Assembly (NCBI GenBank): GCA_903955385.1
Contig: CAJBNH010000028.1
Location: 1-57,990, forward strand
Reading direction: 5' to 3'
Source of the DNA: an uncultured Myxococcales bacterium
Lineage (GTDB): Bacteria; Myxococcota_A; UBA9042
DNA length: 57,990 bases
Positions 5,156 through 40,765 of the stretch are shown here, in pieces; the stretch's first letter is position 1; every line of letters starts with the position of its first letter. Under the pieces are notes generated by a model. The model saw only the letters and a program-made list of their open reading frames with translations, had not been told where the DNA came from and made no database searches. Position numbers and translations under genes: made by a program.

Positions 5156-6747
5156 GGGTCTGGAATCGGCTGAAACAGGCCCAAGCCCAGTCGATGCTCG
5201 ATGACCTGGGCGCAACCCATCGCAACGCGGACACTATCTGCCGCAACCGGATGCTCGCCGTAACGCGCCGCCACCTGCTGCAGGGCGGACAGCGTGGCGC
5301 GCATCGTCGACTCGCAGGTCAGGATGCTCTCTGAGTTGCGGTCGTACTGCGGCAGCATCAGCCGAAACCCGACACCGTCGCGCACTGCCAGATCGGCAAA
5401 TGCCTCGATCTCGTGGTGGTTGCTCTGCAGCAACACCATGCTGTAACGCAGCGAGCCCTGCATCCGGCCGTCACGCCGAGCCGCCACCAGCAAGTCCAGA
5501 TGCTGGCGAATGCGGGAAAAGGGCAGCCCGCGGTGGACCTTGCGGTAGGTCGCCGCCGTCGCGGCATTGACGCTGACCACCAGCGACAGGCGAGGCCCCC
5601 CTGGCCGCCACAGCGCCTGCTGCAGCCGGGGCGTCAGGTACGACCCGTTCGTCACCAGGAAGAACATCAAGTCTGGGTACTTGCTGAAGTCGCAGGTGGT
5701 CAGCAGGTTGCGCAAGACCGGCGAGGCCAGCGGTTCTCCCCCGGACAGGTCCAGATGGTGCAGACCGGGCGTCAGCTCGAGGACAGCGTCGTAGAAGGTC
5801 CGCGGCAGCTCGTCGGCCAGCGTGCCCGTCTCGCCGCACGAGCACATCACGCAGTCGTAGTTGCAGTACGTCGTGGGTCGGCAGTGCAGGGTTGCGGGCG
5901 GCGTGTCCAGCACCGTGCGACCTGCCCAAATCGCCTCCACTGTCTCGATCTGCGCCTGAACCATCGCTGGCGAACCGCCGTGCAGGACCAGCCGGTCCAA
6001 CGTGGCGCTGCCGTCGTTCCATCGAGGACAGGTGTTCCGGCAGGTGCGACCCGGGTCGCCCGCGACCATCGCCTCACGAAACCGCTGCATTGACGGGGCG
6101 TTCCACAGGGTGGTGATCGGCGTCCCCAGCGGTGCGTGCACCGTTTCGACCGGGTAGTCGAAGCAGCAGGGCGCGAAGTTTCCGAATTCGTTCGACACCT
6201 CCAGATACGTCCACGGCAGCGTGCAGGCCCGCTGCGGCAAGTCTGCGACCGGCACCAGATCTCGCAGCTGCACGGACTCGCCCCGTCGGTCCACCAGCCG
6301 CTCACGGGCCTGCTGTTGCCAAGGCCCACGCGAAACCGGCGCGCGGGGGTGGTGCCTGCCCTCGCTTGCACACGCGGAGGCCAGCGCGTGCGCGATCCAG
6401 ACCTCGACATCGGCGGCGTCCCCCAGCGCCAACCCCAGCGCACCGGTGGCTGCCGACAGGGCTACGCGGTCCAGATCCGTCCGCTCGTAGTTCAACGGCG
6501 CGCCGCCCAAGCGACCGAACGGACGGTGGCCGGAATCGGGCGCTTGCGAAGAGGCCGTCCACAGCACGACCTCGCGGCCACCCGCAGGGTCGACAAGGCC
6601 CAGCCGCACCCGATCACCCGCCGGCCGGACGAACGCCAGCTGCCAGCCGCCCGCGAGCATGGTGCCGACCGCCAAGGGGCCGAACGCGAGCAGCGTGGCG
6701 GGGCGTGCGTCGGTGGGGGACGTGCAGGGGGTGGTAGCGGGTGGCAT
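5152..6747 (-). CDS. Radical SAM protein with N-terminal SPASM-like Cys block
   Basis: A 531-residue enzyme predicted to bind a [4Fe-4S] cluster and cleave S-adenosylmethionine. The CxxxCxxC cluster motif is CNYDCVMC (C295, C299, C302), followed by the glycine motif LDLSGGEPL. A SPASM-like auxiliary-cluster block lies before the core: C175 in CTLPW, C194-C195 in FAPCC, then a TTLWNAPS segment and C236/C240. In typical SPASM enzymes this block follows the core. Residues 1-170 match nothing I recognise. No precursor peptide or transporter is nearby, so the substrate is unknown. ATG at 6747 was preferred to one 33 codons upstream, because that extension runs into the direct repeat at 6794. No strong ribosome-binding site is visible. 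Confidence 0.8.
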   Translation of the reverse strand: MPPATTPCTSPTDARPATLLAFGPLAVGTMLAGGWQLAFVRPAGDRVRLGLVDPAGGREVVLWTASSQAPDSGHRPFGRLGGAPLNYERTDLDRVALSAATGALGLALGDAADVEVWIAHALASACASEGRHHPRAPVSRGPWQQQARERLVDRRGESVQLRDLVPVADLPQRACTLPWTYLEVSNEFGNFAPCCFDYPVETVHAPLGTPITTLWNAPSMQRFREAMVAGDPGRTCRNTCPRWNDGSATLDRLVLHGGSPAMVQAQIETVEAIWAGRTVLDTPPATLHCRPTTYCNYDCVMCSCGETGTLADELPRTFYDAVLELTPGLHHLDLSGGEPLASPVLRNLLTTCDFSKYPDLMFFLVTNGSYLTPRLQQALWRPGGPRLSLVVSVNAATAATYRKVHRGLPFSRIRQHLDLLVAARRDGRMQGSLRYSMVLLQSNHHEIEAFADLAVRDGVGFRLMLPQYDRNSESILTCESTMRATLSALQQVAARYGEHPVAADSVRVAMGCAQVIEHRLGLGLFQPIPDP

Positions 6748-7227
6748 CGGATGATGCTCGCTGCCGGGGGGGCGGGGGTCAAGCGAGTAAGGGGTCAGGT
6801 ATGAGCAGTTTACAGTTTTGAGAATCAAATTCACATTAGATTTCATGCTATCGTATAGGTGTCAGGTATGAGCAGTTTACAGTTTCCTGCTCAGGAACTC
6901 GCCAGACCCACCTCCATTCAGCCGCCTGCCGACCGAGTGCCCTGCTGCGAGTCCATCTACCAACCGCAGCAGGAAGTGTCCCGTGATGGCGCTGGATGAT
7001 GTCATTGGTGACTGAGAGCGGGTCCCGACTACCCATGGCCACCCAGCAAGACACGTTGACGGCGGTGACCGGATGACTCCGACAGTCAGGGCTCCCGTCT
7101 GGACCCAGGACTTGTGTCGGTGCTCGGATGGCTCGTGATCGTGGCCGGCGTTGCGGGCGGACTCGTGAAGACCCTCCGCTAGCGTGCATGGCTTGGCCCG
7201 CAGCCCCGCTCCGCCTATGCTCACCCC
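6748..7227. other. Intergenic region with AT-rich island and direct repeats
   Basis: This 480-base gap lies between the divergent radical SAM and HEAT-repeat genes. It contains two copies of a 25-base repeat enclosing an AT-rich stretch (6819-6860), then about 340 bases of GC-rich sequence. Short reading frames there do not resemble any family. It looks like the remnant of an inserted element plus upstream regulatory sequence. Confidence 0.45.
6794..6885. repeat. 25-base direct repeat pair (6794-6818 and 6861-6885)
   Basis: Both copies begin GTCAGGTATGAGCAGTTTAC and are identical over 25 bases, 67 bases apart. The 42 bases between them are much more AT-rich than the surroundings. The leading GGTGTCAGG also resembles the short tandem repeat at 57823-57848. 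Candidate termini of a small mobile or miniature element; no transposase gene remains in the window. Confidence 0.55.
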
Positions 7228-8442
7228 ATGAACGCCCCGCGCCATCCCCCTGTCACCCTGCGCAACCTGCTGCTGCTTGCCTTCGTGGTCCTCGTGCCCG
7301 CGACCGCGCGCGCCGACTTCGCCGCCCGGCTGGCCGAGTGCCCGCAGCTCGAGCTCGCGACCTGCCCTGCGCTGGTGCAGGCGGCCGCGGCCAAGGCGGA
7401 GGCCGTTCGCGATCTGGTGGCCGTGCTGGAGCGCCCGTCGGCTCCTACCGTTGACCGCGCTCGGGCCGCCGTGGCACTGGGACTATTGGACGCTCGCGAA
7501 CAGGCGGACCTGCTTCACGAAACGGCCGACTCGCTGCAGGGCGACCCGCTGCGTGCCGATGTCCTGCTGGCACTGGCAAGGCTGGGCGACCGTCGCGCGG
7601 TGCGGCCGCTGCTGGATGTGCTCGGCGGACTCAACCCGACCGCACGCAAAGTCGCAGCGCAGGGGCTGGCGATGCTGCAGAGTCCGCTGGCGGTGCCGTC
7701 GCTGGTCCGTGCGCTGCGCGATGGCGATCCCGAGGTTGCGGCCGCCGCCGCTCGCGCACTCGGGCGCCACGGCAGTCAGGCCGGTGAACCTGAGTTGATC
7801 GCCCTTGCGGCTCGCCCCAGCGCCCCGGTGGACGTGCGAGTGGCCGCGCTGGACGCATTGGCCGCACAGGGAGCGCTGCGGGCCGCCGGACTCGCCACTT
7901 GGCTGGTGGCCGCCCCTGAGCGCGATCTGGGCCGGGCCGCCCTGCGACTGCTGGCCGCCGTGCCGGTGAAGTGGGCCGAACCTGCTGTTCAATTCGCGTT
8001 GCGGAAGAACGGGTTGCGTGGCGAGGCGGCGCTGGCTGCGGCAGCCTTGGGCATGAAGACGGCGGCCGCGGGGTTGGTGGCAGCAGCCATCGCCACCGAT
8101 TTGCAGGACGACGAACAGGTGGGCGTCCTGCAGGCGCTGGTCGCGGGAAGACCGGTTGGAGCGGCCGCCGCGCTGGCCAAGCGTCTGCCCTCTGCCCCGC
8201 CCACGCAGCAGGCCAGAATCCTGCGCGCCCTGGCGGACTTGGGCGACCCGAGGGTCGTACGTGAGATCGTGCCTTTCACCGAGTCCGCCGACCCCGCGCT
8301 TGCCAACAACGCGGTGTTCGCGCTAGAGAACCTGACCGGCCGCAAGCTGGGAAGTGATGCGAGGGCTTGGCGCGTACTCGCCGGATTGCCGCCCCTTCCG
8401 CCCGTCGCCGCCCCCGCAGCCCCGGCCCCGAAACGCCACTGA
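7228..8442 (+). CDS. Secreted HEAT/PBS-lyase-like repeat protein
   Basis: A 404-residue protein with an N-terminal signal peptide ([16 protein letters not shown], cleavage predicted before D30). The rest is built of Ala/Leu-rich paired helices of about 30 residues. The clearest HEAT units include [20 protein letters not shown] and [11 protein letters not shown]. The C-terminal 20 residues are Pro/Ala-rich. HEAT arrays are binding scaffolds with no catalytic residues, and the partner is unknown. It ends 19 bases before the CoA-transferase gene, so the two could be cotranscribed, though no functional link is evident. Confidence 0.75.
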
Positions 8443-8461
8443 ACGCCCCAAGGAGAACGCC

Positions 8462-9133
8462 ATGCCCCTGTCCCGCAACGAGATGGCTGCCCGCGTCGCT
8501 GAGGAGCTGCAGGACGGCTTCTACGTCAACCTGGGCATCGGCATGCCGACCCTTGTCGCCAACTTCATTCCGCCCGGCATGGACGTGATCCTGCAGAGCG
8601 AAAACGGAATGCTCGGCGTCGGCCCGTTTCCCTACGAAGGCGACGAAGACCCCGACTTGATCAACGCCGGCAAGCAGACCATCACGCAACTACCCGGATC
8701 TTCGTATTTTTCGTCGGCTGAGTCCTTTGCGATGATCCGCGGTGGCCACGTGGACCTGACGATTCTGGGGGCCATGCAGGTGTCCGAAGCGGGCGATCTG
8801 GCCAACTGGACCGTGCCCGGCAAGATGATCAAGGGCATGGGCGGCGCAATGGACCTCGTCGCGGGCGCCAAGCGCGTCGTGGTCACGATGACCCACTGCG
8901 ACAAGACGGGCGAGCGCAAGATCCTGCGCGAGTGCACCCTGCCGCTGACCGGCAAGAAGGTGGTGCACCGGATCGTCACGGACATGGCCGTCATCGACGT
9001 GACGCCTGAGGGCCTGATCCTGCGCGAGATCGCCAGCGACACCACCGTTGAGGAGGTCCTGCGCCTGACCGACGCGCCGCTGCAGGTCGCTCCTGAAATC
9101 CGCGTGCTGAAGGCGACCGCGACTGCGGCCTGA
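8462..9133 (+). CDS. scoB: 3-oxoacid CoA-transferase, subunit B
   Basis: The 223-residue beta subunit of a class I CoA-transferase (SCOT/AtoA type), which moves CoA between succinyl-CoA and acetoacetate or similar acids. The catalytic glutamate is E47 in QSENGMLG, preceded by the typical [27 protein letters not shown] and the [16 protein letters not shown] stretch are also characteristic. ATG at 8462 has AAGGAG eight bases upstream. The alpha subunit normally lies directly upstream of this one; here a HEAT-repeat gene takes that place, so the partner must be encoded elsewhere or the enzyme is incomplete. Confidence 0.92.
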
Positions 9134-9198
9134 ACCGCAGCGCCCCCACGAGTCCCCCCGACTCCACCGCGGAGCCCCTGCTTCGCCCAGAGGCGCCC

Positions 9199-10299
9199 AT
9201 GCGCAACTCCTATCCGGTCACCGCCCCCCTGGACCGCCTGGTTTCCGTCGTCATGGCCGGTGGCAGCGGTACGCGGTTTTGGCCCCTGTCGCGCAAGGAC
9301 GAACCCAAGCAGCTGCTGAAGTTCTTTGGCGACAAGACCTTGCTGCGCACCACCGTCGACCGTATCGCGCCCTTGTGCCCACCGCAGCGGCAGCTGGTCG
9401 TCACCGCCGCACATCTGGTCGATGCCGTGCAGGCCGTGCTGCCCGAGCTGGGTCCCGGCCAGATTCTGGGCGAGCCGGCCCCGCGCAACACCGCACCCTG
9501 CATGGCGTTGGCGGCGATGGTGGCGCAGCAGCTGGTCAGCGACGCGATTCTGGTGCTGCTGCCCGCCGACCACTATGTCGCCGATGCACAGAAGTTCCGC
9601 GACGCGCTGGCGATCGCCGTCCAACACGCAGAGCGCGGACACATCGTGACCTTGGGCGTGACGCCCAGCCAGCCTGAGACCGGCTACGGCTACATCCAGC
9701 TGGATCAGGAGGTTGGCGAGGGTGTGTCGAAGGTGGCGCGGTTTGTCGAGAAGCCCGACTTCGAGACCGCCATGCGCTATCTCGAGGGCGGCAAGCACCT
9801 GTGGAACGCGGGCGTGTTCGTATTGCGCGCCGACGTGGCCATGCGGGCGCTGGACGAGCACGTGCCGGCCATCGGCGTTGCCTTGGGCGAGCTGCGGGCC
9901 GGCGTGCACCGCTTTGACAGCGAGGCGTTCGCGGCCATCGTGCGCGTCGCCTTCCGCCACTGCCCGTCGGTCAGCATCGACTACGGTGTCATGGAGCGTG
10001 AGACCGATCTGCGCGTCGTGCGGCTGGATGCCGGCTGGAGCGATGTCGGCACGTGGCACTCCGTTCTGGGGCTGCGGCCCGCGGGCGAGGAGAACTTCGT
10101 GCACGGCCCCGTGTCGGCGCTGGATTGCCACAACAGCGTGCTGATCTCGAAGGGGCCGTACCTCGCCGCGGTCGGTCTGGTCGGCATGGCCGTCGTCGTC
10201 ACCGACAAAGCCACGCTGGTGCTGCCGGTCGACCGCTCGCAGGACGTTCGGCAGGTCGTCGACGAGGTCGCGCGCTTGGGCCGATCAGACCTGCTATAG
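9199..10299 (+). CDS. manC: Mannose-1-phosphate guanylyltransferase
   Basis: Makes GDP-mannose from mannose-1-phosphate and GTP for polysaccharide or glycan synthesis. The 366-residue protein has the nucleotidyltransferase signature GGSGTRFWPLSRKDEPKQ (from about residue 19), the APRNTAP and LPADHY motifs, and VEKPDFETA. It lacks the C-terminal phosphomannose isomerase domain of the bifunctional enzymes, so it is the short monofunctional form. The phosphomannomutase that supplies its substrate follows 57 bases downstream, which supports the assignment. Confidence 0.92.
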   Translation: MRNSYPVTAPLDRLVSVVMAGGSGTRFWPLSRKDEPKQLLKFFGDKTLLRTTVDRIAPLCPPQRQLVVTAAHLVDAVQAVLPELGPGQILGEPAPRNTAPCMALAAMVAQQLVSDAILVLLPADHYVADAQKFRDALAIAVQHAERGHIVTLGVTPSQPETGYGYIQLDQEVGEGVSKVARFVEKPDFETAMRYLEGGKHLWNAGVFVLRADVAMRALDEHVPAIGVALGELRAGVHRFDSEAFAAIVRVAFRHCPSVSIDYGVMERETDLRVVRLDAGWSDVGTWHSVLGLRPAGEENFVHGPVSALDCHNSVLISKGPYLAAVGLVGMAVVVTDKATLVLPVDRSQDVRQVVDEVARLGRSDLL

Positions 10300-24395: not shown

Positions 24396-28097
<3,702 letters not shown>

Positions 28098-28556
28098 CTT
28101 GTCCTCGTTCAGGGTGGGGCTGTGACCTGGCCTGCACTGCAGTGGTTCATCTCGCGCCAATTGCGGGCCTCAAAGGACCGCGGGCACTGGCGCAGCGCAC
28201 TCGCAACGGTGCGGGGTCGGGGGTACGAACTGTCCCAAGATCATGTCGTGAAGATCGAAAAACCCTTACATCAGAATCGCTTGTCGGCACTTCGGCGGCA
28301 ATCGGCCCGCCGCAGTCGCGAAAGGATACTCTCTGACGACGGGCACTTCAATTCAAACTAGGCCCGTGCCCTGATCTTGATCCGGATTTTGCGAATCATT
28401 TCACCATCATGTCAGATGGTTACATCACATTGGCCGCAGTTTGCGGATACCCAAATTTCCCGACTTGCGCGCCATTCCGTCAACGAGTGCCAATTTCAGA
28501 CATTGACCAATATGACACACAGCAGGGGTCTCGTTTTGAGACGCCTGCCCTTCGGC
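28098..28556. other. Intergenic region between two minus-strand kinase genes
   Basis: These 459 bases lie between the start of the HAMP-GAF kinase operon and the end of the upstream 1479-residue kinase. They include an AT-richer stretch (about 28240-28460) likely to hold the operon promoter, and a broken palindrome ATGT-n2-GATG-n4-CATC-ACAT at 28409-28430. No gene is supported. Confidence 0.45.
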
Positions 28557-31500
28557 TCACGCAGGCAGCCCGGCGAGCACCGAACGGACCAGGGCAAGCG
28601 CCACGTCGTAGTCGTAGGTCCGCAGGGCCGCGCCGATCCGCTCGACCGCCGCTTCGTCGACGGCCCCGCCCAGCTGCAGCCAGTTGTCCTCGAACAGGGA
28701 GTTGGCCGCCGTGTCCTGATCGCTCAGCAGCGATTCCAGCGAACCCAGCAGCTGCCGGGCGCGGGCGTGGGCTTCGGACGAGACGCCCGCGACGACAGCT
28801 GCGGCATCTTCCGTCGAAGTCGAGACGAGCGTCGCAAGGCTTGCGTCAATCGTGCTCAGGGCAGCGGCCAGCGGCGACACGTGCGACCGGATCTGGTCGA
28901 CCGAGGCCGCGAGTCGCACCGACTCCACGATCGCCGCCGCGATGTCGCGCAAGTGCATGGCGCCCAAGGCTCCCGAGGCTCCCAGCAGGTTGTGGGCCAG
29001 CCGCCCGGCACCGTGGAGGTCTCCGGCGTCCAGTCGCTCGGTCAGCCGCTCTGCGTCGTGGCCGTGGTGCTCGACCAGCTGGCGCAGCAAGTCCAGGTAC
29101 AGGTTGGGGTCCTGTTGCGACGACGTCATGCCGACCGAGGTGTCCAGACCGGGGCTGTCCACCAGCGTCGCCGGCAACTCCTCATAGGTCGGGATGAAGA
29201 TGCCGGATGGCCACCGTCGCACCCCACCGGACGCCGGCCGTTTGCGGGACACCGCGGCCATCTTCGCAGTCGGGAGCCACTTCGCCAGCGCCGACCATAG
29301 CTGCTGCGGCAGGATCGGCTTGGCGATGTAGTCGTTCATGCCTGCTTGCAAGCAGCGGTCGCGGTCCCCTGTGAAGGCGTTGGCCGTCATGGCGAGGATC
29401 GGGATCGCGCCGCCGTCGGACAGTGCGCGGATCTGCCGGGTCGCCTCGAGGCCATCCATCACCGGCATCTGCACGTCCATCAGGATCAGATCGAACGCCC
29501 CGGAACGCGCCTGTTCGACGGCGACCCGCCCGTTGACGGCCACGACAGCGCTGAGGCCCACCGAGTCCAACAGCTGCGAAATGACCTCTTGGTTGACCGG
29601 GTTGTCTTCGACCACCAGGATCCGCGTGCGGTGCCAGGCCCGCATGTCCTGGGCGGTCGCGTCGACATCCGTCGGCGGTCGCGGTGCCCCTGCCTTTCGT
29701 GCCAGGTCCCTCAACCCATCCTGCAGCACAGACGGTGTCACAGGCTTGGTCAGCACCCGCGCGACCGCCATGCGCTCCGCCTCGTCGGCCGAGATCTGGT
29801 CGCCATAGCCGGCGACGATCACCACTTGCGGTCGCGGCGACAGGGGCAGCGCCTGCAGGCGCCGCGCGACCTCCAGACCGTCGATACCGGGCATCTCCAG
29901 ATCCAGAAAGACGATGCGGTACGGGTCACCGCTGCGGTCGGCAGAGGCGACCGCGGCCACGGCGGCCCCCCCGGACGGTGAGGAATCGATCTGCATGCCC
30001 AGATCTTCCAACAGCGTGGCGAGGATCTGACGGGCGGCGGGGTAGTCGTCGACCACCAACCCGCGAGCGCCCCTCAACGCGAAGGTCCACTCGGCCGTGG
30101 TCGTCAACGGGTCGGCGCGCTGGAAGGGAACCTCGAGCCAGAAGGTGCTGCCGCTGCCCAGCTCGCTTTCGACGCCGATGGTGCCGCCCATCAACTCGAC
30201 GAGGCGCTTGCAGATCGCCAGACCCAGCCCCGTGCCGCCGAAACGCCGCGACATCGTGTCGTCGGCCTGCTCGAACGCGATGAACAGACGCTGGATCTGC
30301 TCTTGCGTGATGCCGATCCCGGTGTCGCGCACCTCGATGCGCACCCGGGTCTGGTCGGGCGACTCATCGACGACGCGGGCGACCACCGCCACTTGCCCCT
30401 TCTCCGTGAACTTCACAGCGTTGCTGACCAAATTCAGCAGTACCTGACCCAGCCGCACGCCGTCGCCCTTGAGCATGACGGGCAGGTGATCCAGATCGAC
30501 GGTCATCTGCAGCCGCTTGCCAGCGACCTTGTCCGTTACGATGGCAAAGACGTGGTCGATGACGCGCGCCAGCTCAAAGTCGGCGGCCTCCAGCGTCATC
30601 TTGCTGGCTTCGATCTTCGACAAGTCCAGAATGTCGTTGATGATGTTCAGCAGGTGCTGGGTCGCTGCGGTCATCCGCTCCAGTTGCTCGTTCTGCCGCG
30701 AGGTCAGCGGGTCGCGCTTGAGCAGGTACGAGTAGCCGATGATGGCGTTCATCGGCGTGCGGATCTCGTGGCTCATCTTGGACAGGAACGCGGTCTTTGC
30801 GCGATTCGCCGCCTCAGCCGCGTCCTTTGCCTCTTCGAACTCTACGGTTCGGATGGCGACCAACTCTTCCAGATGTCCCTGATAGCGCTCGAGTTCCAGA
30901 GCATCCCGGGTGGCCTCGGTGGTGTCCTGCGACGTGCCGAGGATCGACAGCGGCGCGCCATTTGGGTCGGTCTCGAGCTCCGCCCGGACCGAGATCCAGC
31001 GTTCCCCGTCGACCGTGCGGTGCCTGAAGCTGATCTCCTTGCTGCGCAGCAGCGCCTCCGCAGCGCGGCGCACCATGGGTCGGTCGTCGGGATGGACCAC
31101 CTTGAACAACTCTTGGGCGGGGACACCGTCGAGGTCAAGGCCCCACGCGCGCCGGGTTTCCTCAGATGCGTACAGCCGGTCGGCGGCGAGGTCGACCCAC
31201 CAGTGTCCGATGCGGGCCACCTTCTGGGCGTTCTTGAGGGTTTTCTCGTTGCGTGCCAAGATCTTGGCGTTCTCTGTGCGTTCGTGGACCAGCAGTGCGA
31301 TGCCGATGCGGTCGGCCAGCTGGCAGCCAAACGTGATCTCGTCCGGCTCCCAGTGGTGAAGCCTCTCGGTGTGCTCCAGACAGACCGTCCCCATCAACCG
31401 ACCCGCCGACATGACGCTGCAGTCGAGCAGCGACCGGATGCCGTGGGGAATGACGTACCGCTCCCGATAGCCCGCCGTGCGCGGGTCGTTCAACGCGTCG

Positions 31501-32996
31501 TCGACATCGACATATCGCTGCAGCACCAGCGTGTGCGTTTCCTCGACCAGCATCTCGAACGGCATGAACTCGCCGCCTGTGTGCCGATCTTCCGCGAGCT
31601 CGTACAAGTCCTTACAGATCAGTCCGTTGCCTGCCGGAGCGTTCAGCCAGACCGAGGCGCGGCTGATGCCCAAGGCACGACCAACCGACTCTGTGACGAT
31701 GCGGGAGTAGGCGGCAACGTCCCCCTGCGCGACGGCATCGCTGCGGTCGATGGACGCCAGCACGCCGACGTGCTTGCGCAGACGCTGCACCAGAGTCTGG
31801 TCGTGCGCTGCCCGCTGGTTCTCCTCGGTGACGTCGAGCCACACCGCCGAGTTGAACGGCTGACCGCCAATGGTAACGGGCTGCAGCCGCGCACGGACGT
31901 CGCGGATCTCGCCCCGCTTGGTGCGATGCTGGACGTCGAACTCGGCCTTCCGCGGCTCCGGAGCCGCTGCGATCAAGGCTTCCGTGCGCGGCACGTTGAC
32001 GTCGAAGTCCGCGACCGTCAGCTGGGCGAACTCCTCTCGCGTGTAGCCCAGGCCCTCATGCGCCGCGGTATTGAAGTCGATCATCCGGCCAGAGCCCGAC
32101 TCGATGACGGCGACCCCGTCTCTGATCTGCGCGAACATGACATTGAGCCGTTCGTTCTGCTCGCGCAGGGTGGCTGCATCGACGCGGCGATCCACCGCTT
32201 CGGCGGCGCGGTGGACCAGCGCATCGGCCAAGACCCGCTCTTCATTCAGGAACGGTCCTTCGTCTGCGTCGGGCCGCGCCTCAGCCAACGCGATAGCCAG
32301 ACGAACCGGCGGACCGGCCTGGGTCGCGGCTTCGGCAAACAGCAGCCACGGCGTCTCGGCGAAGCCAGCCGTCTGCGCCGTCACGTCGCCCCACTGCAGT
32401 CGGGCGGAAGTGATGTCGGCATGCTGCCAGCCAGCGGGAATGCGCTCGACCATGTCCTGCAGCACGCGCTCGATCGGCTTGGTCAGGTCCTCAGAGGCCC
32501 GAAACGCCTCCAGCAGACACGTCTGCTCCTTGACGCGCTCGTGCAGGAGGGCCTGCTTGCGCTCCAACGCGAACTCGGCCTGCTTGCGCGCCGTGATGTC
32601 GTTGATGGTGGTCAGTACAGCTCGCTCGCCCTCGAAGTCGATGAGGACGCCGGAGATCTCCGCCCAGTAGGGTTGGCCAAACCAATCCAGCATCTCCAGT
32701 TCCTGCTCGCCGGTCGCCCCGTCTTTGCGCAGCAGTTCCAAGAAACGATCGCGGTCTTGCTCGTGACGGTAGAAGCGGGCCGCGCGCTGGCCAATCGCCC
32801 GGGCGGGGTCAATGCCAAAGTGGGTCTGGGTGCGACGGTTGCCAAAGCACACCACATCGTCACGGACCCGGACGACGAGGATCAGGAACGGCGCACGGTC
32901 GAGCAGGTAGCGAAAGCGCTCGTCTCCGATCCGCAAGGCGTCTTGCGCCTGGTGCGCGAGTTCCTGAATGTCGGTGAGGCCAGAGTTGGCGGGCAT
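28557..32996 (-). CDS. Soluble hybrid histidine kinase, PAS/GAF-HK-REC-REC-HPt
   Basis: A 1479-residue kinase with no membrane segment. PAS domains lie at about 22-140, 282-392 and 588-700. A GAF-like region spans about 425-572, with a second weaker GAF-like stretch near 155-270. HisKA has H743 in [11 protein letters not shown]; ATPase boxes are [19 protein letters not shown] and [14 protein letters not shown]. Two receivers follow (D1032 in [11 protein letters not shown] and D1174 in [11 protein letters not shown]), then an HPt domain with phospho-acceptor H1335 in [16 protein letters not shown]. All parts of a His-Asp-His relay are on one chain, so it could phosphorylate the neighbouring receiver-cyclases. 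ATG at 32996 lies 186 bases from the divergent cyclase gene. Confidence 0.92.
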
Positions 32997-33182: not shown

Positions 33183-34271
33183 ATGACCCCCCCAAACGAA
33201 CCTGTGCTGGTCAAGAACGCAACGCTGCTGGTGGTCGACGACACGCCGGAAAATCTGGAGGTGTTGTCGCGGGTACTGGCGCCAGAGTACCGCGTCAAGG
33301 CCGCGAATTCCGGCTTGCGCGCCCTGCGCATCTGCAGTCAGGACCCCCTGCCCGATCTGATCCTGCTGGACGTGATGATGCCGGACATGGACGGCAAGGA
33401 GGTCTGCCGCCAGCTCAAGGCCGACCCGCGCACCGCCGACATCCCGGTCATCTTCGTGACGGCGATGACCGACACCGAGGACGAAGCGCGTGGCTTTGAG
33501 ATCGGCGCGGTCGACTACATCACCAAGCCCATCCGCCCGCCGGTGGTGCTGCAGCGCGTTCGCCTGCAATTGGCCTTGCGTCGCGCGCAGTTGGAACTGG
33601 CAGAGCTGGGGCAGCGCTACGCCTCGTACCTGTCACCGCAGGTGTCCAGCTCGATCCGCAGTGGTGAGGTGCCGGTCGAGCTGGTGGGCACCCGCAAGCA
33701 CCTGACGATCTTCTTCTCGGACCTGGTCGGCTTCACCCGGCAGACCGAGCAGCTGGACCCGGCCGTGATGACGCGGCTGATCAACAGCTACTTTCAGGCC
33801 ATGACTGAGGTTGTCGAGCAGCACGGCGGCACGCTGGACAACTACATCGGCGACGCCATCCAGGTGTTCTTCGGCGACCCGCACACCCGAGGCCCAGAAC
33901 AGGACGCCGTCGCCGCGGTGCAGATGGCGTTGGCGATGCAGGCCAAGATCCCGCAGCTGCAGCCTTTGTGGCACGCCGCCGGGCTGGATGCGCTGCAGGT
34001 GCGCATGGGCGTGGCCAGCGGTCCGTGCTTCGTCGGCAACTTCGGCAGCGAGCAGCAGATGGCCTACACCGTACTGGGCACACCCGCCAACCTGGCCGAG
34101 CGCCTGCAGAACCGCGCCAAGCCCGGCGAGGTGCTGGTCTGCGAGACCACGCACGAACTCATCCAGCGCCACTTCAGTTGCAGTGCCATCGAGCCCTTCT
34201 CTGCCCCCGGCCTCGGCGAGGCCGTTCCCGGATTCGGCGTCGCAGCCCACGTGGCTGACGTCGTCCCCTGA
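33183..34271 (+). CDS. Response regulator-class III nucleotide cyclase (atypical purine pocket)
   Basis: A 362-residue protein. The receiver (about 13-130) is intact: D19/D20, D63 in LLDVMMPDMDG, T93 and K115 in DYITKPI. A short helical linker leads to a class III cyclase domain (about 165-345). Metal-binding aspartates are D180 in FFSDLVGFT and D224 in YIGDAIQVFFG; the transition-state Asn and Arg are N303 and R307 in TPANLAERL. The residue before YIGD, usually Lys in adenylate and Glu in guanylate cyclases, is Asn (N220, codon AAC). Substrate choice is therefore open. AAGGTG upstream of ATG 33183 serves as ribosome-binding site. A cNMP-binding protein kinase starts 19 bases downstream. Confidence 0.9.
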   Translation: MTPPNEPVLVKNATLLVVDDTPENLEVLSRVLAPEYRVKAANSGLRALRICSQDPLPDLILLDVMMPDMDGKEVCRQLKADPRTADIPVIFVTAMTDTEDEARGFEIGAVDYITKPIRPPVVLQRVRLQLALRRAQLELAELGQRYASYLSPQVSSSIRSGEVPVELVGTRKHLTIFFSDLVGFTRQTEQLDPAVMTRLINSYFQAMTEVVEQHGGTLDNYIGDAIQVFFGDPHTRGPEQDAVAAVQMALAMQAKIPQLQPLWHAAGLDALQVRMGVASGPCFVGNFGSEQQMAYTVLGTPANLAERLQNRAKPGEVLVCETTHELIQRHFSCSAIEPFSAPGLGEAVPGFGVAAHVADVVP

Positions 34272-34290
34272 CTCGCACCCAGGATCTGCC

Positions 34291-35778
34291 ATGAAGTCCC
34301 GCCAGACGATCGCGTACGACCGCTTGGTCGAGATCGCGCCCGACGCACCCGCGACGACGCCCGCGAACCTGCCGGAGTGGGCGAGGCTGGAGATCCTGCA
34401 GGGCATGTCGGCCGACGCGATCGAAGAGCTGCGCCAGGCCATGGAGGTGGTCGAATTCGCCCCGGGCGACGCGATCCTCCATGAGGGCGACGACGGCGAC
34501 GACATGTACATCCTGGACAAGGGCACCGTGCGCGTGCAGGTGCGGGGAACCAGCAAGGCCGCCACGTTCGAGCGGGTGTTGGAGTCTCCGGCACTGTTCG
34601 GCGAGATGGCGCTGATCACCCACGCACCCCGAACGGCGTCCGTCCTTGCGGAAGAGCCGGCGCGCTGCCTGCGCATGTCCAGCGAAACGTTTCAGGCGGT
34701 CGCCGCGCGCACGCCCGGGGTCGCTGCCTTCCTGACGCGCATCGTCGGCGAGCGGCTGCTCGAGGCCAAGACCATCCACCACGTCGGAAAGTACAAGGTA
34801 ATCGGACGGTTGGGCGCGGGCGCGGTCGCCACGGTGTTCGAGGCGGTGCATCCGGGGCTGGAGCGAACCGTTGCGCTGAAAATGCTGTCGCACGCGCTGG
34901 TGCACCACCCCAGTTTTGCCAATCAATTCCAAGATGAAGCCAAGATCGTCGCCCAGCTGGACCACGACCACATCGTGCGGGTGTTCGACACTGAGAAAGC
35001 GTACGGCACGCACTTCATCGTCATGGAAAAGCTGTCCGGCTGCACGCTGGACGACATCATTCAGGGCGGCACGCGGCTGGCTTGGGGCGCCGTACAGCGA
35101 ATCCTGCGCGAGATCGCCGGCGCCTTGGACTACTCGCACAAGAAGGGCCTGCTGCACCGCGACATCAAGCCGTCGAACGTGTTCCTGACCAACGACGACC
35201 GCCGCGTCAAGCTGCTGGACTTCGGCATCGCGATGAGTGTGACGGCGTCGGCCCCCGGCTCCAGCGGCCTGATGGGCACGCCGTACTACATGTCGCCCGA
35301 GCAGATCCGCGGCGAGACGCTGGACGGCCGGTCGGACCTGTATTCGCTGGGCATCCTGGCCTACGAGCTGATCACCCGCGACCTGCCGTTCGACGCCGAC
35401 GACCTGGACGCCCTGCTGGACAAGCACCTGACCGAGCCGATGCCCGACATGCGGACCAAGGCCGCCGACGTCCCGGACTACCTGATCCAGTTCGTGACCA
35501 AGGCGACGGCCAAGAACCCTGAGAATCGCTTTGCGAATTGCGGTGAGGCCGAGGCCTTCCTGCGCCTGAGCGCCGAGCTGCCGATCGTGCAGTCGATGGG
35601 CCTGGCCACCGTCGCCCTGTCCTACCACCCCACGCGCCGCAACCTGGTGATGGCGGCGTTGCAGGAGCTGCAGGAAGCCCTTGGCGGGCTGCCCGGGATT
35701 TCGGTGCTGTGCCGCGAGCTGCCCCACACCGGCACCGAACCGTCCGAGCCGCGGGGCCCCAGCAAACCGAAGGCCTGA
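34291..35778 (+). CDS. Ser/Thr protein kinase with N-terminal cyclic-nucleotide-binding domain
   Basis: A 495-residue kinase, apparently gated by a cyclic nucleotide. Residues about 28-158 form a CAP_ED/CNB domain with a phosphate-binding cassette FGEMALITHAPRTASV (E105, R114, T115). The protein kinase domain (168-450) is complete: glycine loop GRLGAGAVATVFEA, K197 in TVALKML, E216, HRDIKPSN (D291), LLDFGIAM (D310) and GTPYYMSPEQIRG. There is no membrane segment. The C-terminal 45 residues are uncharacterised, with a Pro-rich end. The ATG at 34291 lies 19 bases after the cyclase stop, so the enzyme that makes the ligand and the kinase that reads it should be co-made. This resembles a one-chain analogue of PKG/PKA. 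Confidence 0.92.
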   Translation: MKSRQTIAYDRLVEIAPDAPATTPANLPEWARLEILQGMSADAIEELRQAMEVVEFAPGDAILHEGDDGDDMYILDKGTVRVQVRGTSKAATFERVLESPALFGEMALITHAPRTASVLAEEPARCLRMSSETFQAVAARTPGVAAFLTRIVGERLLEAKTIHHVGKYKVIGRLGAGAVATVFEAVHPGLERTVALKMLSHALVHHPSFANQFQDEAKIVAQLDHDHIVRVFDTEKAYGTHFIVMEKLSGCTLDDIIQGGTRLAWGAVQRILREIAGALDYSHKKGLLHRDIKPSNVFLTNDDRRVKLLDFGIAMSVTASAPGSSGLMGTPYYMSPEQIRGETLDGRSDLYSLGILAYELITRDLPFDADDLDALLDKHLTEPMPDMRTKAADVPDYLIQFVTKATAKNPENRFANCGEAEAFLRLSAELPIVQSMGLATVALSYHPTRRNLVMAALQELQEALGGLPGISVLCRELPHTGTEPSEPRGPSKPKA

Positions 35779-35805: not shown

Positions 35806-36861
35806 TCAGCGCAAGACCGCAGAGTAGTTCGCGATCTCGCCCGTCAGCCCGTGTGCGACGAAAGGTGCATTGGGCACACACTCGATCTGCCCTTGCACAA
35901 GATCGCGGGTCGCCGCGCAGATCAGTACTTGTCCAGGCTGCGCACGGACTTGCAGGCGCGCGGCCAAGTTGACCGGGGTGCCCAGCACCGTATAGGACAG
36001 CTGCCGCTCCGCACCAAAGTTGCCGACGAAACACGGGCCGCTGGCGATGCCCATGCGGACCGCCAACGACTCGCCCAGCCCGGCCTCTCGCCACAGCGGC
36101 TGCAGCTCGGCCAGCTTGGCCTGCATCTCGAGCGCCATGCGCACCGCGACAACGGCGTCCTGCTCTGGACCTCGGGTCACCGGGTCGCCGAAGAACACCA
36201 GAATCGCGTCGCCGATGTACTTGTCCAGCGTGCCCTGGTGGCGGTGGATGATGTCGGTCATCGCTTGAAAGTAGTGGTTCAGCAGGCGAGCCATCACGGC
36301 CGGGTCCAGCTGTGCCGTCTGGCGTGTGAAGCCCACGATGTCGGAAAAGAAGAGCGTCAGGTCCTTGCGCTGGCTGACGACGCCTTCGGCAACCTCTCCC
36401 CGGCGGATCGAGCTGGACAGCAGCGGCGACAGGTAGGAGGAGTAGCGCTGCGAAAGCTCCGCCAGCTCCAACTGCGTGCGACGCAAGGCCAATTGCAGTC
36501 GCACGCGCTTCAACACCACGGGGGGACGGATCGGCTTGGTGATGTAATCGACCGCGCCGATCTCGAAGCCTTCCGTCTCGTCGTCGGTCTCGCTGTTCGC
36601 CGTCACGAAGATCACGGGGATGTCGGCGGTGCGCGGGTCGGCCTTGAGCTGACGGCAGACCTCCTTGCCGTCCATCTCGGGCATCATCACGTCCAGCAGG
36701 ATCAGATCGGGCAACGGGTCCTGACTGCAGATCCGCAGGGCACGCGCGCCTGAGGTGGCCGCCTTGACGCGATACTCTGCCGACAGGGCCCGCGACAGCA
36801 CCTCGAGATTCGCCGGCATGTCGTCGACCACAAGCAAAGTCGCGGTCTTGTCGGTCCCCAT
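35806..36861 (-). CDS. Response regulator-class III adenylate cyclase (canonical Lys)
   Basis: A 351-residue paralogue of the cyclase at 33183, on the opposite strand, sharing long stretches such as QDPLPDLILLDVMMP and DPRTADIPVIFVTA. The receiver has D57 and the DYITKPIRPP Lys. The cyclase domain has D174 in FFSDIVGFT, K214 and D218 in LDKYIGDAILVFFG, and SYTVLGTPVNLAARLQ. Lys and Thr at the purine-specifying positions fit an adenylate cyclase. The ATG at 36861 directly precedes the receiver; an ATG 14 codons upstream is possible. It converges on the kinase gene, ending 27 bases from that gene's stop. Confidence 0.9.
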   Translation of the reverse strand: MGTDKTATLLVVDDMPANLEVLSRALSAEYRVKAATSGARALRICSQDPLPDLILLDVMMPEMDGKEVCRQLKADPRTADIPVIFVTANSETDDETEGFEIGAVDYITKPIRPPVVLKRVRLQLALRRTQLELAELSQRYSSYLSPLLSSSIRRGEVAEGVVSQRKDLTLFFSDIVGFTRQTAQLDPAVMARLLNHYFQAMTDIIHRHQGTLDKYIGDAILVFFGDPVTRGPEQDAVVAVRMALEMQAKLAELQPLWREAGLGESLAVRMGIASGPCFVGNFGAERQLSYTVLGTPVNLAARLQVRAQPGQVLICAATRDLVQGQIECVPNAPFVAHGLTGEIANYSAVLR

Positions 36862-37069
36862 CTCTCTTGCCCCCGCCGCAGCCCGGTGCTCAGCAGCCCC
36901 CACGGCATCGCGGAGTGTTCACGATACGCGGCAAATTGTCATGGTGTGTGAACAGGGTCGGCCGCAAGCTGTTGCACACGGTCAAGGCTAGGACCACACT
37001 TCGCCGTCAATCTTCCCGTGGCGGAGATGGCTCCCCCCCCCGCCCACCACGACGAAGTGGCCAGGGATC

Positions 37070-38185
37070 ATGGCGAACAACCCCAGCATGTCCTCCGCGC
37101 GAGAAACGGTGCTGATCGTCGATGACTCGCCGGCCAATATCGCCGTGCTTGTGTCGTTGCTGCAGCCCCTGTACCGCGTTCGGGTGGCCAATGGTGGCAT
37201 ACGGGCGCTTGCCGTGGCGCAGAGCGAGCCGCTTCCCGACCTGATCCTGCTGGACATCATGATGCCGGACCTGAACGGCTATCAGGTGATCGAGCAGCTG
37301 CGCGAGCTGCCGGCGACCCGCGACGTCGCGGTCGTGTTCGTCACCGCCCTGCACCACGCCGAGGACGAGGAGCGCGGTCTGGCCGCCGGAGCCGCCGACT
37401 ACATCACCAAGCCCATCCAACCGTCGGTGGTGCTGGCCCGCGTGCGCACGCAGCTGGACCTGAAGCGCGCCCGCGACATGATGCGCGACCAGAACGCGTA
37501 CCTGGAGGCCGAAGTTGCCCGGCGGATCTCTGAGACGCTGACGGTGCAAGAGGTGGCCATCCGTGCGCTGGCCCGTCTGGCCGAGACCCGCGACCTCGAG
37601 ACGGGCAACCACCTGCTGCGCACCCAATCTTATGTGCGGCTGCTGGCCGAACACCTGCGGACCCACCCGGTGCATGGCCCAACGATGACCGCCGCCCACG
37701 TCGACCTGCTGACCAAGTCGGCTCCGTTGCACGACATTGGCAAGGTCGGCATTCCCGACTCGGTCCTGTTGAAGCCCGGTCGCCTGACGCCCGAAGAACG
37801 CTTGGTCATGGAGACCCACGCGGCACTGGGGGCGGCAGCCATCGAGCAGGCCGAGGCGGACACGGAACAGCGCATCGAATTCCTGAGTGTGGCCAAGGAC
37901 ATCGCGCGCAGCCACCACGAACGCTGGGACGGCGGCGGTTACCCCGACCACTTGGCCGGTCAGAACATTCCGCTGAGCGCGCGGCTGATGGCGGTGGCGG
38001 ACGTGTTCGATGCGCTGACGACGCGCCGACCCTACAAAGAGGCGATGCCGTTCGGCCAAGCGGTCGACCTGATCATCCAGGGCAGCGGCAATCACTTCGA
38101 CCCGGACATCGTCGACGCGTTTCTGGCCAGACTGGCCGACTTTCAGGCGATCTCCGAGCGCAACCAGGACAACCGCGCCGCCTGA
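37070..38185 (+). CDS. Response regulator-HD-GYP phosphodiesterase
   Basis: A 371-residue RpfG-type protein predicted to hydrolyse c-di-GMP. The receiver (about 12-128) has D18/D19, D62 in LLDIMMPDLNG and the DYITKPIQP Lys. The HD-GYP domain (about 155-355) has HDIGKVGIPD (H221, D222), LLKPGRLTPEE, HHERWDGGGYP (282-292) and RLMAVADVFDALTTRRPY, all catalytic and signature residues present. It lies divergent to the second cyclase across about 200 bases. Its receiver is close in sequence to those of the cyclases, suggesting shared ancestry or shared kinase input. An ATG six codons downstream is an alternative start. Confidence 0.93.
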   Translation: MANNPSMSSARETVLIVDDSPANIAVLVSLLQPLYRVRVANGGIRALAVAQSEPLPDLILLDIMMPDLNGYQVIEQLRELPATRDVAVVFVTALHHAEDEERGLAAGAADYITKPIQPSVVLARVRTQLDLKRARDMMRDQNAYLEAEVARRISETLTVQEVAIRALARLAETRDLETGNHLLRTQSYVRLLAEHLRTHPVHGPTMTAAHVDLLTKSAPLHDIGKVGIPDSVLLKPGRLTPEERLVMETHAALGAAAIEQAEADTEQRIEFLSVAKDIARSHHERWDGGGYPDHLAGQNIPLSARLMAVADVFDALTTRRPYKEAMPFGQAVDLIIQGSGNHFDPDIVDAFLARLADFQAISERNQDNRAA

Positions 38186-38212: not shown

Positions 38213-40765
38213 TCAGGGGGCCGCGACCACCGGCTTGCCTTGCACCAGACTGGCGACGAACAGCTGCAGCTGGCGAAAGGCAGACTTGTCGTTGAAGGCG
38301 ACAAAGTGGCCGTCGTAGGGCAACCCGTCGAACGCGTTGGCGGCAACCGGCTGGTACTGCACCGTCACCCCCCAGGTCACGCTGCCGTCGGATCCCAAGA
38401 CGCCCAAGGAAATCGGCAGCTTCGCTGTCGCCATGCCCAAATCCTCAGCCGCATCGAACCACTTCGGCGTCGGGTCGGGCGCCCCCATCACCCCCTGCAT
38501 CGCCGCCGCAAACAGGCGCGTGGTCACGGGTGGTGTGTAGTGGTCGTCGTGTCCGTAAATCTGCAGGGTCGGCAGGGGCTTGGACAGCGGCGCGGCGTGC
38601 AGCAGGTGGCCCGACAGCTGGGGGTCCACGGGCTCGAAGTAGGTGGCCATCAGGTTGAGGACCGGGTGGCGCTCGTCCAGGTTGAGCTCCTGCAACACGA
38701 ACCGCAGGCCCAGCGAGGTGTCGATCGGCTTCGTCTTGCCCAGCAGCCCGTGAATCAGCGACCCGCCCGCGCCCGAAAACACCGCCCCCGCGATCCCCTT
38801 GCGGTACGGCAGGATGGCAGGACCGGTCGTGCCGCCCTGCGAATGCCCCATGAAGATCAGGTGGTTGGGATCGAAGCGAACCACCCCGTCCACGCCCGGC
38901 ACCAAGCCCTGATAGGCGGTCGCCCAGCGCTGCAACGCCACGAGATCGGCCGCGCCCTGCAGGAACCCGCCGCGCGAGGCCACCGGGTTGGCGATGTTGT
39001 AGACCAGCTGGCCGGGGTCGATGTCGGCGCCGCGCCGGGGCCCGTGCATCGGCATGTCGAGGGTCAGGGTCGCGACATGGACCTCTGCGCCGGTCGGCAG
39101 CGTGATCGTGCCCAAGCCATCGCCCAACATGTCGGCCCCGGAACGGAACGAGCCATTGGTGCCGTGCGCAAACAGCACCACCGGCCAACCGCCCGCAGGC
39201 ATGCCGGTCTTGGGAATCGTCACCGCCATGCACACGTTCTCGGTGCCAGCCGCGACCGGCAGGCCGCCCTGCCACTGCAGTCCGCCGCCCTCCTCCAGAT
39301 ACGGTCGCGTGCCGTGCTGCCAGACCGGCACCTGCAAGCGAACATGGAACTCGTTGAATACGTTAGATGTTTTTGACGGACACCCGCGCGGATCCGGCAG
39401 CCCGGCCTTGCCCTCGTCCGACTGGGCCCAACCCGGCGTCGCGCAAGGGGAAGTGACCCCGGGCGAGCAGCGGACCATCGACTGCGACAGCTTGGCCAGC
39501 GGGGCCTGCTCAGCCGCTTGATTCAGCGCCTGCACGATCTCCAGCGGGTGACCGGTGGTGAAGACGGTGGCCTGAACGACGCGCCGCGGATTCAGTCCCA
39601 GCCCCGGCAGCGACGCGCGCACACCTGCGTACTGCTTCCATGCCGGCTGCAGCGCTGGGTCGTCGGGAGGCGTCGGTGCCAACACGGCAAGCAGGTCGGC
39701 GGAAGGCAGCGCACCGGGACCCGGCACGGCAGGGCGGATGGCGTCGGTGACCAGCACGGCATAGGTCGTGTCCGGCTCCAGCAGCATCCCGCCGCGCGGC
39801 CGCACGTAGATCCGGTTGCCGCACATGTACTTGTCGCGGGCTGACAGGAACGAGACGTCGATCGGCGGCACGGCCCCGGGCGTCAGGCGAATCAGCCGGA
39901 CCGCGGGATCCAGCCCTTGGGTCGACAGGGAGGCGGGGTCCAGCGCGCGATTGAAGCGCAGGTAGATGCCCGTCGACAGGCCAAAGCCCTTCGCCTCGCT
40001 GCCCAGCGCCACAGCCACCCGGTCCACCGCATCGAACCCGACGACGCCGGGGCCCGGGCGCGGGTGGTCAGACAGATCCAGGAAGCCGTCCTTCATCCTG
40101 AGATCGTTGGGGAAAGGCAGGTCGTAGAAGGCCGAGTTCTCGCCCTGGCGCGGCACGCGGAACACGCCCTGGAAGGACTGATCGGCCTCTTCGTCCTCAG
40201 CGCATTCGACCCCGGCAAACAGGTCGGGGTAGAGGACCAGGCTGCCCGCGACACACTGCATCCGCTCTGGGGAGCACGCGAGCCCCGGGAGACAATCCAG
40301 CAAATTCTGGCACTTGCCACCGATATCCTTGGCGCCCGGATGCACCAGATGGCACTCGCCCGCGACGCCGATCTGCAAGCACTGCAGGCCCGACTGGCAC
40401 TCGACCGCGGTCACGCACGACTCGCCGACCCCCATCTGGCCGGCCGGCGAGCAAAATCCCGACCAGCCGCACTGCATGTTCGGCAGGCACTCGGCCGTCA
40501 GCAAACACGCGCCGTCCTTGGGCGTCTTGCCGACCGGTTTGCACTTGCCCGACGTGCACGCCAAGCCAACGCGGCAGTCCGTCGTCGCCTTGCACACCTG
40601 ATTCACGCCCTTTCCCGCGAACCGCGGCAGTGGTGCGGCGTCACTCTGGGCGTCGGCGACATCGTGCTGGAACGTGCCCTCACAGCCGCCAGCCAGCGAC
40701 AACCAGACCACCCAGACGGGCAGCAGCGCCAAAGCGCCACGGTGCGGTCGGCAGCGCGCCCTCAC
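38213..40765 (-). CDS. Cys-rich lipoprotein with alpha/beta-hydrolase domain
   Basis: An 850-residue exported protein with lipobox SLAGGC (C28). Residues about 50-190 form a Cys-rich array of CxxxxxC-GLxC type units (CRVGLACTSGKC, CQSGLQCLQ, CLPGLACSP). The remainder resembles large bacterial lipases/hydrolases: an Ig-like stretch, then an alpha/beta-hydrolase core with nucleophile elbow GHSQGG (Ser near residue 641), oxyanion-side FAHGTNGS and a late IYGHDDHYTPP that could carry the acid. The start is GTG at 40765, overlapping the stop of the upstream lipoprotein (GTGA). It is the last gene of a three-gene coupled operon. Substrate unknown; an ester is likely. Confidence 0.75.
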   Translation of the reverse strand: MRARCRPHRGALALLPVWVVWLSLAGGCEGTFQHDVADAQSDAAPLPRFAGKGVNQVCKATTDCRVGLACTSGKCKPVGKTPKDGACLLTAECLPNMQCGWSGFCSPAGQMGVGESCVTAVECQSGLQCLQIGVAGECHLVHPGAKDIGGKCQNLLDCLPGLACSPERMQCVAGSLVLYPDLFAGVECAEDEEADQSFQGVFRVPRQGENSAFYDLPFPNDLRMKDGFLDLSDHPRPGPGVVGFDAVDRVAVALGSEAKGFGLSTGIYLRFNRALDPASLSTQGLDPAVRLIRLTPGAVPPIDVSFLSARDKYMCGNRIYVRPRGGMLLEPDTTYAVLVTDAIRPAVPGPGALPSADLLAVLAPTPPDDPALQPAWKQYAGVRASLPGLGLNPRRVVQATVFTTGHPLEIVQALNQAAEQAPLAKLSQSMVRCSPGVTSPCATPGWAQSDEGKAGLPDPRGCPSKTSNVFNEFHVRLQVPVWQHGTRPYLEEGGGLQWQGGLPVAAGTENVCMAVTIPKTGMPAGGWPVVLFAHGTNGSFRSGADMLGDGLGTITLPTGAEVHVATLTLDMPMHGPRRGADIDPGQLVYNIANPVASRGGFLQGAADLVALQRWATAYQGLVPGVDGVVRFDPNHLIFMGHSQGGTTGPAILPYRKGIAGAVFSGAGGSLIHGLLGKTKPIDTSLGLRFVLQELNLDERHPVLNLMATYFEPVDPQLSGHLLHAAPLSKPLPTLQIYGHDDHYTPPVTTRLFAAAMQGVMGAPDPTPKWFDAAEDLGMATAKLPISLGVLGSDGSVTWGVTVQYQPVAANAFDGLPYDGHFVAFNDKSAFRQLQLFVASLVQGKPVVAAP

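Follow-up and report, generated by a model that had tools for sequence, protein, structure and literature searches.

A receiver-cyclase gene and a cyclic nucleotide-binding Ser/Thr kinase gene side by side in an uncultured Myxococcales bacterium: a candidate PKG-like relay

In bacteria, the output of cAMP and cGMP runs mostly via transcription factors and channels. Here, we asked whether a locus in which a gene for a receiver-class III nucleotide cyclase (cyc1) is followed by a gene for a Ser/Thr kinase with its own cyclic nucleotide-binding (CNB) domain could carry a two-component signal, through a cyclic nucleotide (cNMP), to protein phosphorylation. The first-pass annotation had proposed such a relay within one operon and had likened it to the PKG pathway. 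The window, that is, the whole analysed stretch of 57,990 nucleotides, is contig 28 of a 5.3-Mb draft genome whose closest public relatives are MAGs labelled Myxococcales or Deltaproteobacteria. The features of the locus are listed in Table 1.

Table 1. Features of the cyclase/CNB-kinase locus (positions in the window)
Feature	Position	Strand	Basis
Hybrid histidine kinase: PAS, GAF, HisKA, HATPase, two receivers, Hpt	28557..32996	-	Pfam
cyc1: receiver-class III nucleotide cyclase, 362 aa	33183..34271	+	Pfam, motifs
CNB-Ser/Thr kinase, 495 aa	34291..35778	+	Pfam, alignment, AlphaFold model
Cyclic nucleotide-binding domain (cNMP_binding), residues 54-140	34450..34710	+	PF00027 E 1e-18
Phosphate-binding cassette G104-E105...R114-T115-A116	34600..34638	+	alignment
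PknB-type Ser/Thr kinase domain (Pkinase), residues 168-415	34792..35535	+	PF00069 E 8e-49; model vs PknB
Small conserved C-terminal tail, residues ~436-470	35596..35700	+	alignment, model
cyc2: second receiver-class III cyclase, substrate Lys kept	35806..36903	-	Pfam, motifs, tree
Receiver-HD-GYP protein; recurring neighbour of orthologous receiver-cyclase in relatives	37070..38185	+	Pfam, neighbourhoods

The locus and its products

Open reading frames, gap and Pfam domains all agreed with the arrangement first described, a receiver-class III cyclase and, 19 nt further on the same strand (gap 34272-34290), a CNB-Ser/Thr kinase. Plausible ribosome-binding sites precede both starts (GAAGGTGA 5' of the ATG at 33183 and AGGA 5' of the ATG at 34291), and the two genes are probably co-transcribed. 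Judging from gene neighbourhood, the hybrid histidine kinase encoded divergently from cyc1, across a gap of 186 bp, is the likely upstream phosphodonor of cyc1. A further hybrid histidine kinase (HAMP, GAF and three receivers) lies nearby at 24396-28160 on the minus strand. The first-pass annotation omitted both cyc2, which is convergent with the kinase gene at a distance of 27 nt, and the receiver-HD-GYP gene; next to the latter, on the minus strand at 38213-40765, is a lipoprotein-like ORF of 850 aa that matches no Pfam family and contains the hydrolase motif GHSQGG. The host genome contained 5 class III cyclases, 13 CNB domains and 33 Ser/Thr kinase matches, and two of the CNB domains belong to kinases of the family studied here, the window copy and one on contig C104. 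No match to class I cNMP phosphodiesterase (PF00233) was obtained in the host genome, which is uninformative because the control genomes likewise gave none.

The complete catalytic core claimed for the kinase was borne out. It has the motifs of an active Ser/Thr kinase (VAxK, C-helix Glu, HRD, Asn, DFG and an APE-type motif) in K197, E216, HRD (289-291), K293, N296, DFG (310-312) and PE (336-337), and in its glycine loop Ala takes the place of the third Gly, as is common in the family. Among 37 aligned CNB-kinases from the host family and far more distant genomes, K197, E216, H289, D291, K293, N296, DFG and PE were invariant, the exception being R290, replaced by Gln in the desulfobacterial clade. 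The phosphate-binding cassette has the Gly-Glu...Arg-x-Ala pattern of a canonical cNMP pocket, and G104, E105, R114 and A116 were invariant in all 37 sequences; the residue after the key Arg was Thr, Ser or Asn and in none of them Ala. Search-derived alignment rows cover mainly the kinase domain and are not informative on the CNB domain or the C-terminal tail. The nearest solved CNB domains with known ligand were of the PKG/PKA-R/SthK type, and the window cassette, GEMALITHAPRTASV, is near the PKG consensus, GELALLYNDPRTATV, given in a 2007 survey (PMC2246266). Thr115 was considered as proof of cGMP specificity and rejected: it matches the PKG type, yet Thr or Ser is found there in many other bacterial CNB domains too, according to the same survey (PMC2246266).

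The AlphaFold model of the kinase was confident (pLDDT 87, pTM 0.78). The best whole-chain matches were PKGs, both by sequence and by Foldseek (full-length PKG structures), whereas the kinase domain was nearest to Mycobacterium tuberculosis PknB in the model (Z 35, 37% identity) and also to the Stk1/PknB sequence model. With PKG, including Plasmodium PKG, the window kinase shares an N-terminal CNB region in cis with a C-terminal kinase domain. However, it has one CNB domain where PKG has two or more, its catalytic domain is PknB-type and not AGC, no dimerisation zipper was recognised in it, its partner is a two-component cyclase and it has its own conserved C-terminal tail. Its resemblance to the Stk1/PknB kinases lies in the catalytic domain (35-37% identity, Z 35); unlike them, it has no PASTA or transmembrane part and carries an N-terminal CNB sensor instead. 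The kinase is thus like a one-CNB PKG in domain order and proposed mechanism only and is not a member of the PKG family, and the earlier label 'PKG-like' holds to that extent, the PknB-type domain and the single CNB domain speaking against anything closer.

cyc1 (Response_reg, residues 16-126, E 5e-26; Guanylate_cyc, residues 172-343, E 3e-23) has the receiver phospho-acceptor Asp (D63 in LLDVMM, PF00072), the class III metal Asp residues D180 and D224, the transition-state pair N303/R307 and T296, the Asp/Thr partner of the substrate-specifying Lys of adenylate cyclases, but that Lys itself is replaced by N220. The nearest solved relative of its cyclase domain was the class III adenylate cyclase CyaB of Pseudomonas aeruginosa (3r5g, E 2e-46), from which cyc1 differs in its receiver input and at this Lys. 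Lys is also found there in cyc2 and every orthologue compared, and Asn is unique to cyc1. The Asn codon lies at 33840-33842, in one of two recent cyclase duplicates. Guanylyl cyclases have Glu at the position (PMC4215837). The Lys-to-Asn change may mark an altered nucleotide product, predicted as cAMP, cGMP or both; and because N220 replaces the substrate-specifying Lys, cyc1 may have weak or relaxed activity, or none.

The kinase family and its cyclase neighbours

CNB-kinases of this type were present in all 22 genomes of the host family, with 1-4 copies each and 58 loci in total, and the kinase family reaches other Myxococcota and desulfobacterial MAGs. Since the C-terminal tail is conserved in both groups, these proteins form one distinct kinase family and not a set of chance fusions. 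Within the host's bacterial family, the fusion is a well-established sensor-kinase architecture of cNMP type. The tail, common to Myxococcota and desulfobacterial members, is unnamed by Pfam. The fusion itself is not new: bacterial CNB domains attached to 'kinases' ('Other_bacterial') were listed, with roles in protein phosphorylation suggested, in the available part of Kannan 2007, which neither defines a family of them nor gives a cyclase linkage or a function (PMC2246266). Ser/Thr kinases combined with class III-like cyclase domains are also known from Myxococcus xanthus Pkn2 (PMC1262709) and the TOMM kinase/cyclase fusion TIGR03903. In these, however, kinase and cyclase form one chain, whereas the window has separate genes and a CNB reader on the kinase. 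Within the literature covered, which was mostly open-access, we found no account of a CNB-Ser/Thr kinase operonic with, or otherwise linked to, a cyclase, nor any experimental work on a CNB-Ser/Thr kinase from bacteria.

In the tree, the window kinase was sister to the C104 copy (93/97; 65% identity), on a long branch (0.74 vs 0.43 for the sister), and cyc1 and cyc2 were in-paralogues (100/100; 74% identity). Both partners are recent, lineage-specific duplicates, and their adjacency is lineage-specific as well. No cyclase was found near the C104 sister or beside the orthologues of the window kinase in the family genomes. The orthologous receiver-cyclases have a gene for a hybrid histidine kinase, a receiver-HD-GYP protein or both as neighbours but no CNB-kinase, and homologues of the hybrid histidine kinase stand beside them in most family genomes examined. 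The pairing seen in the window was thus not retained in any orthologue of either gene, which, like the long branch, counts against the relay.

On the other hand, cyclase linkage recurs. A class III cyclase was directly adjacent at 4 of the 58 family loci, a lower bound, as some flanks end at contig ends, against 0.29 expected under random gene order (P 2.4e-4 for four loci; 3.4e-3 with genomes G009 and G020 counted once); both P values are optimistic because the random-order model ignores any clustering of signalling genes. The four loci represent three arrangements. Besides that of the window, G009 and G020 have a giant STK-AAA-GAF-cyclase gene with the CNB-kinase 42 or ~165 nt on, and G016 has a receiver-cyclase convergent with the CNB-kinase, ~25 nt apart. 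In G009 and G020, two kinases and a cyclase form one apparent operon (L233:1957-9138 and L235:944-7954). The idea that the window adjacency is unique was rejected: no cyclase was near the first 25 family loci, and 3 were adjacent among the rest of the 58. Among distant, mostly desulfobacterial, CNB-kinase loci, 8 of 20 had a class III cyclase within ~6 kb, compared with 0 of 45 control loci of other Ser/Thr kinases from several phyla (Fisher P ~2.5e-5; with related loci collapsed, ~1e-3 and still significant). The other Myxococcota families count against the relay: of 20 CNB-kinase loci there, only 1 has a cyclase domain nearby, on the opposite strand. Thus, some lineages often show cyclase linkage and most do not show it at all. 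CNB-kinases have been paired with different class III cyclases several times independently, and the window pairing is one of these cases. The tally of adjacency in relatives that the first-pass annotation had put forward therefore comes out divided, with unpaired orthologues but an excess of linkage in the family and in distant loci over controls.

The distant loci hold modules of varied order. A CHASE2-cyclase gene lies directly 3' of the CNB-kinase in L062, L064, L065 and L068, preceded by a PP2C gene before the kinase in all but L065; the order is kinase-PP2C-CHASE2-cyclase in L066 (5626-10782) and CHASE2-cyclase, kinase, PP2C in L193. A Zn-ribbon-cyclase-AAA gene is found ~40 nt upstream of the kinase in L196, and one of similar type ~1 kb downstream in L060. 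The L062 module (4584-9782) consists of PP2C, PilZ-CNB-STK and CHASE2-cyclase genes, its kinase having an extra N-terminal PilZ domain. PilZ-CNB-Ser/Thr kinases and CHASE2-cyclases stand side by side in L062, L064, L065, L068 and L066, with PP2C in all but L065. In the CHASE2-cyclase of L062, Glu occupies the Lys position and Gly the second one (KEYVGD, YGALGD); the two align with the pair in Cya2 (2w01), where Glu-Gly is the unusual purine pair of a guanylyl cyclase (PMC4886424). Because of this Cya2-like pair, the L062-type module is predicted to be a cGMP-supplied kinase, with possible c-di-GMP input, and it makes a stronger case than the window does.

The proposed relay and its rivals

Gene order, intact catalytic cores, the invariant cassette and recurrent linkage together favour a relay from histidine kinase through receiver-cyclase and cNMP to CNB-kinase, which we hold to be somewhat likelier true than false. 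A hybrid histidine kinase, probably the one divergent from cyc1, would phosphorylate D63 of the cyc1 receiver; the phosphorylated receiver would activate the dimeric cyclase; and the product, cAMP or, in view of N220, cGMP or the two together, would bind to the CNB domain at the N-terminus of the kinase, which is probably co-transcribed, and lift the inhibition of the PknB-type catalytic domain. A two-component signal would thereby end in Ser/Thr phosphorylation. The direct pairing would have arisen by duplication of both genes in the host lineage. Nucleotide binding and gating are predicted from sequence, gating from motif invariance and recurrent linkage, while the phosphotransfer, the nucleotide product and the existence of kinase substrates are presumed. 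PP2C phosphatases beside several distant CNB-kinases and hybrid histidine kinases beside the orthologous receiver-cyclases also count in favour. Of the one-operon relay as first proposed, then, the gene order, cores, canonical cassette and recurrence stand, and the loss of adjacency in orthologues weighs against it.

The strongest rival, in our view rather unlikely, is that the kinase is truly cNMP-gated and reads a common pool from all five class III cyclases of the host. The adjacency of cyc1 would then be incidental: duplication into a locus already rich in signalling genes would have produced it by chance or through co-expression, with no private relay. This would suit a kinase conserved across the family mostly without cyclase neighbours, the C104 sister included, whereas the same-strand spacing of 19 nt and the fact that linkage recurs more often than chance predicts, involving different cyclases and other lineages, are less expected under it. 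An improbable alternative starts from cyc1 itself: with Asn at position 220 in cyc1 only and Lys kept in its in-paralogue at 74% identity, cyc1 might be degenerate or altered and cyc2, convergent with and 27 nt from the kinase gene, the active enzyme, the kinase answering the cyc2 product or phosphorylating the cyclases as feedback. Against this, all remaining catalytic residues of cyc1 are kept and its frame is open, and M. tuberculosis Rv1900c is reportedly active despite Asn at the same position.

We give still less credit, and very little, to a CNB ligand other than cAMP or cGMP, such as a nucleoside analogue, with no functional link to the cyclase. Precedents are trypanosome PKA, a conserved CNB-kinase using a ligand other than cAMP (PMC6440977), and, in Kannan 2007, CooA and CprK (PMC2246266). 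However, that same survey ties ligand change to non-canonical cassettes (PMC2246266), and the window cassette is canonical and invariant in 37/37; the recurrent cyclase linkage is also at odds with this explanation.

Returning to the cNMP-to-kinase relay, several separate origins of the cyclase/CNB-kinase pairing suggest a bacterial counterpart of the animal PKA/PKG pathways with another kinase ancestry. Tentatively, and with a little less than even confidence, we read all loci jointly: bacteria may have repeatedly assembled PKA/PKG-like pathways from parts at hand, in which a CNB-gated PknB-type kinase has a class III cyclase of its own (of receiver, CHASE2, Zn-ribbon-AAA or STK-AAA-GAF type) and its action is undone by PP2C. 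In this reading, the module of the desulfobacteria (PP2C / PilZ-CNB-STK / CHASE2-cyclase with the Cya2-like Glu-Gly pair) would be cGMP-specific and c-di-GMP-responsive. If true, a two-component cyclase and a cNMP-gated Ser/Thr kinase would unite the three large signalling modes of bacteria in a single route, and PKA/PKG logic would have arisen from a kinase of different ancestry. The recurrently linked genes form small, expressible operons suited to direct testing.

Finally, Thr motifs precede the CNB domain in the window kinase (34291-34450) and its homologues, R-E-T-x-x-D in one clade and T-T-Q-F-x-G-L or similar in another, and could possibly be autophosphorylation or pseudosubstrate peptides.
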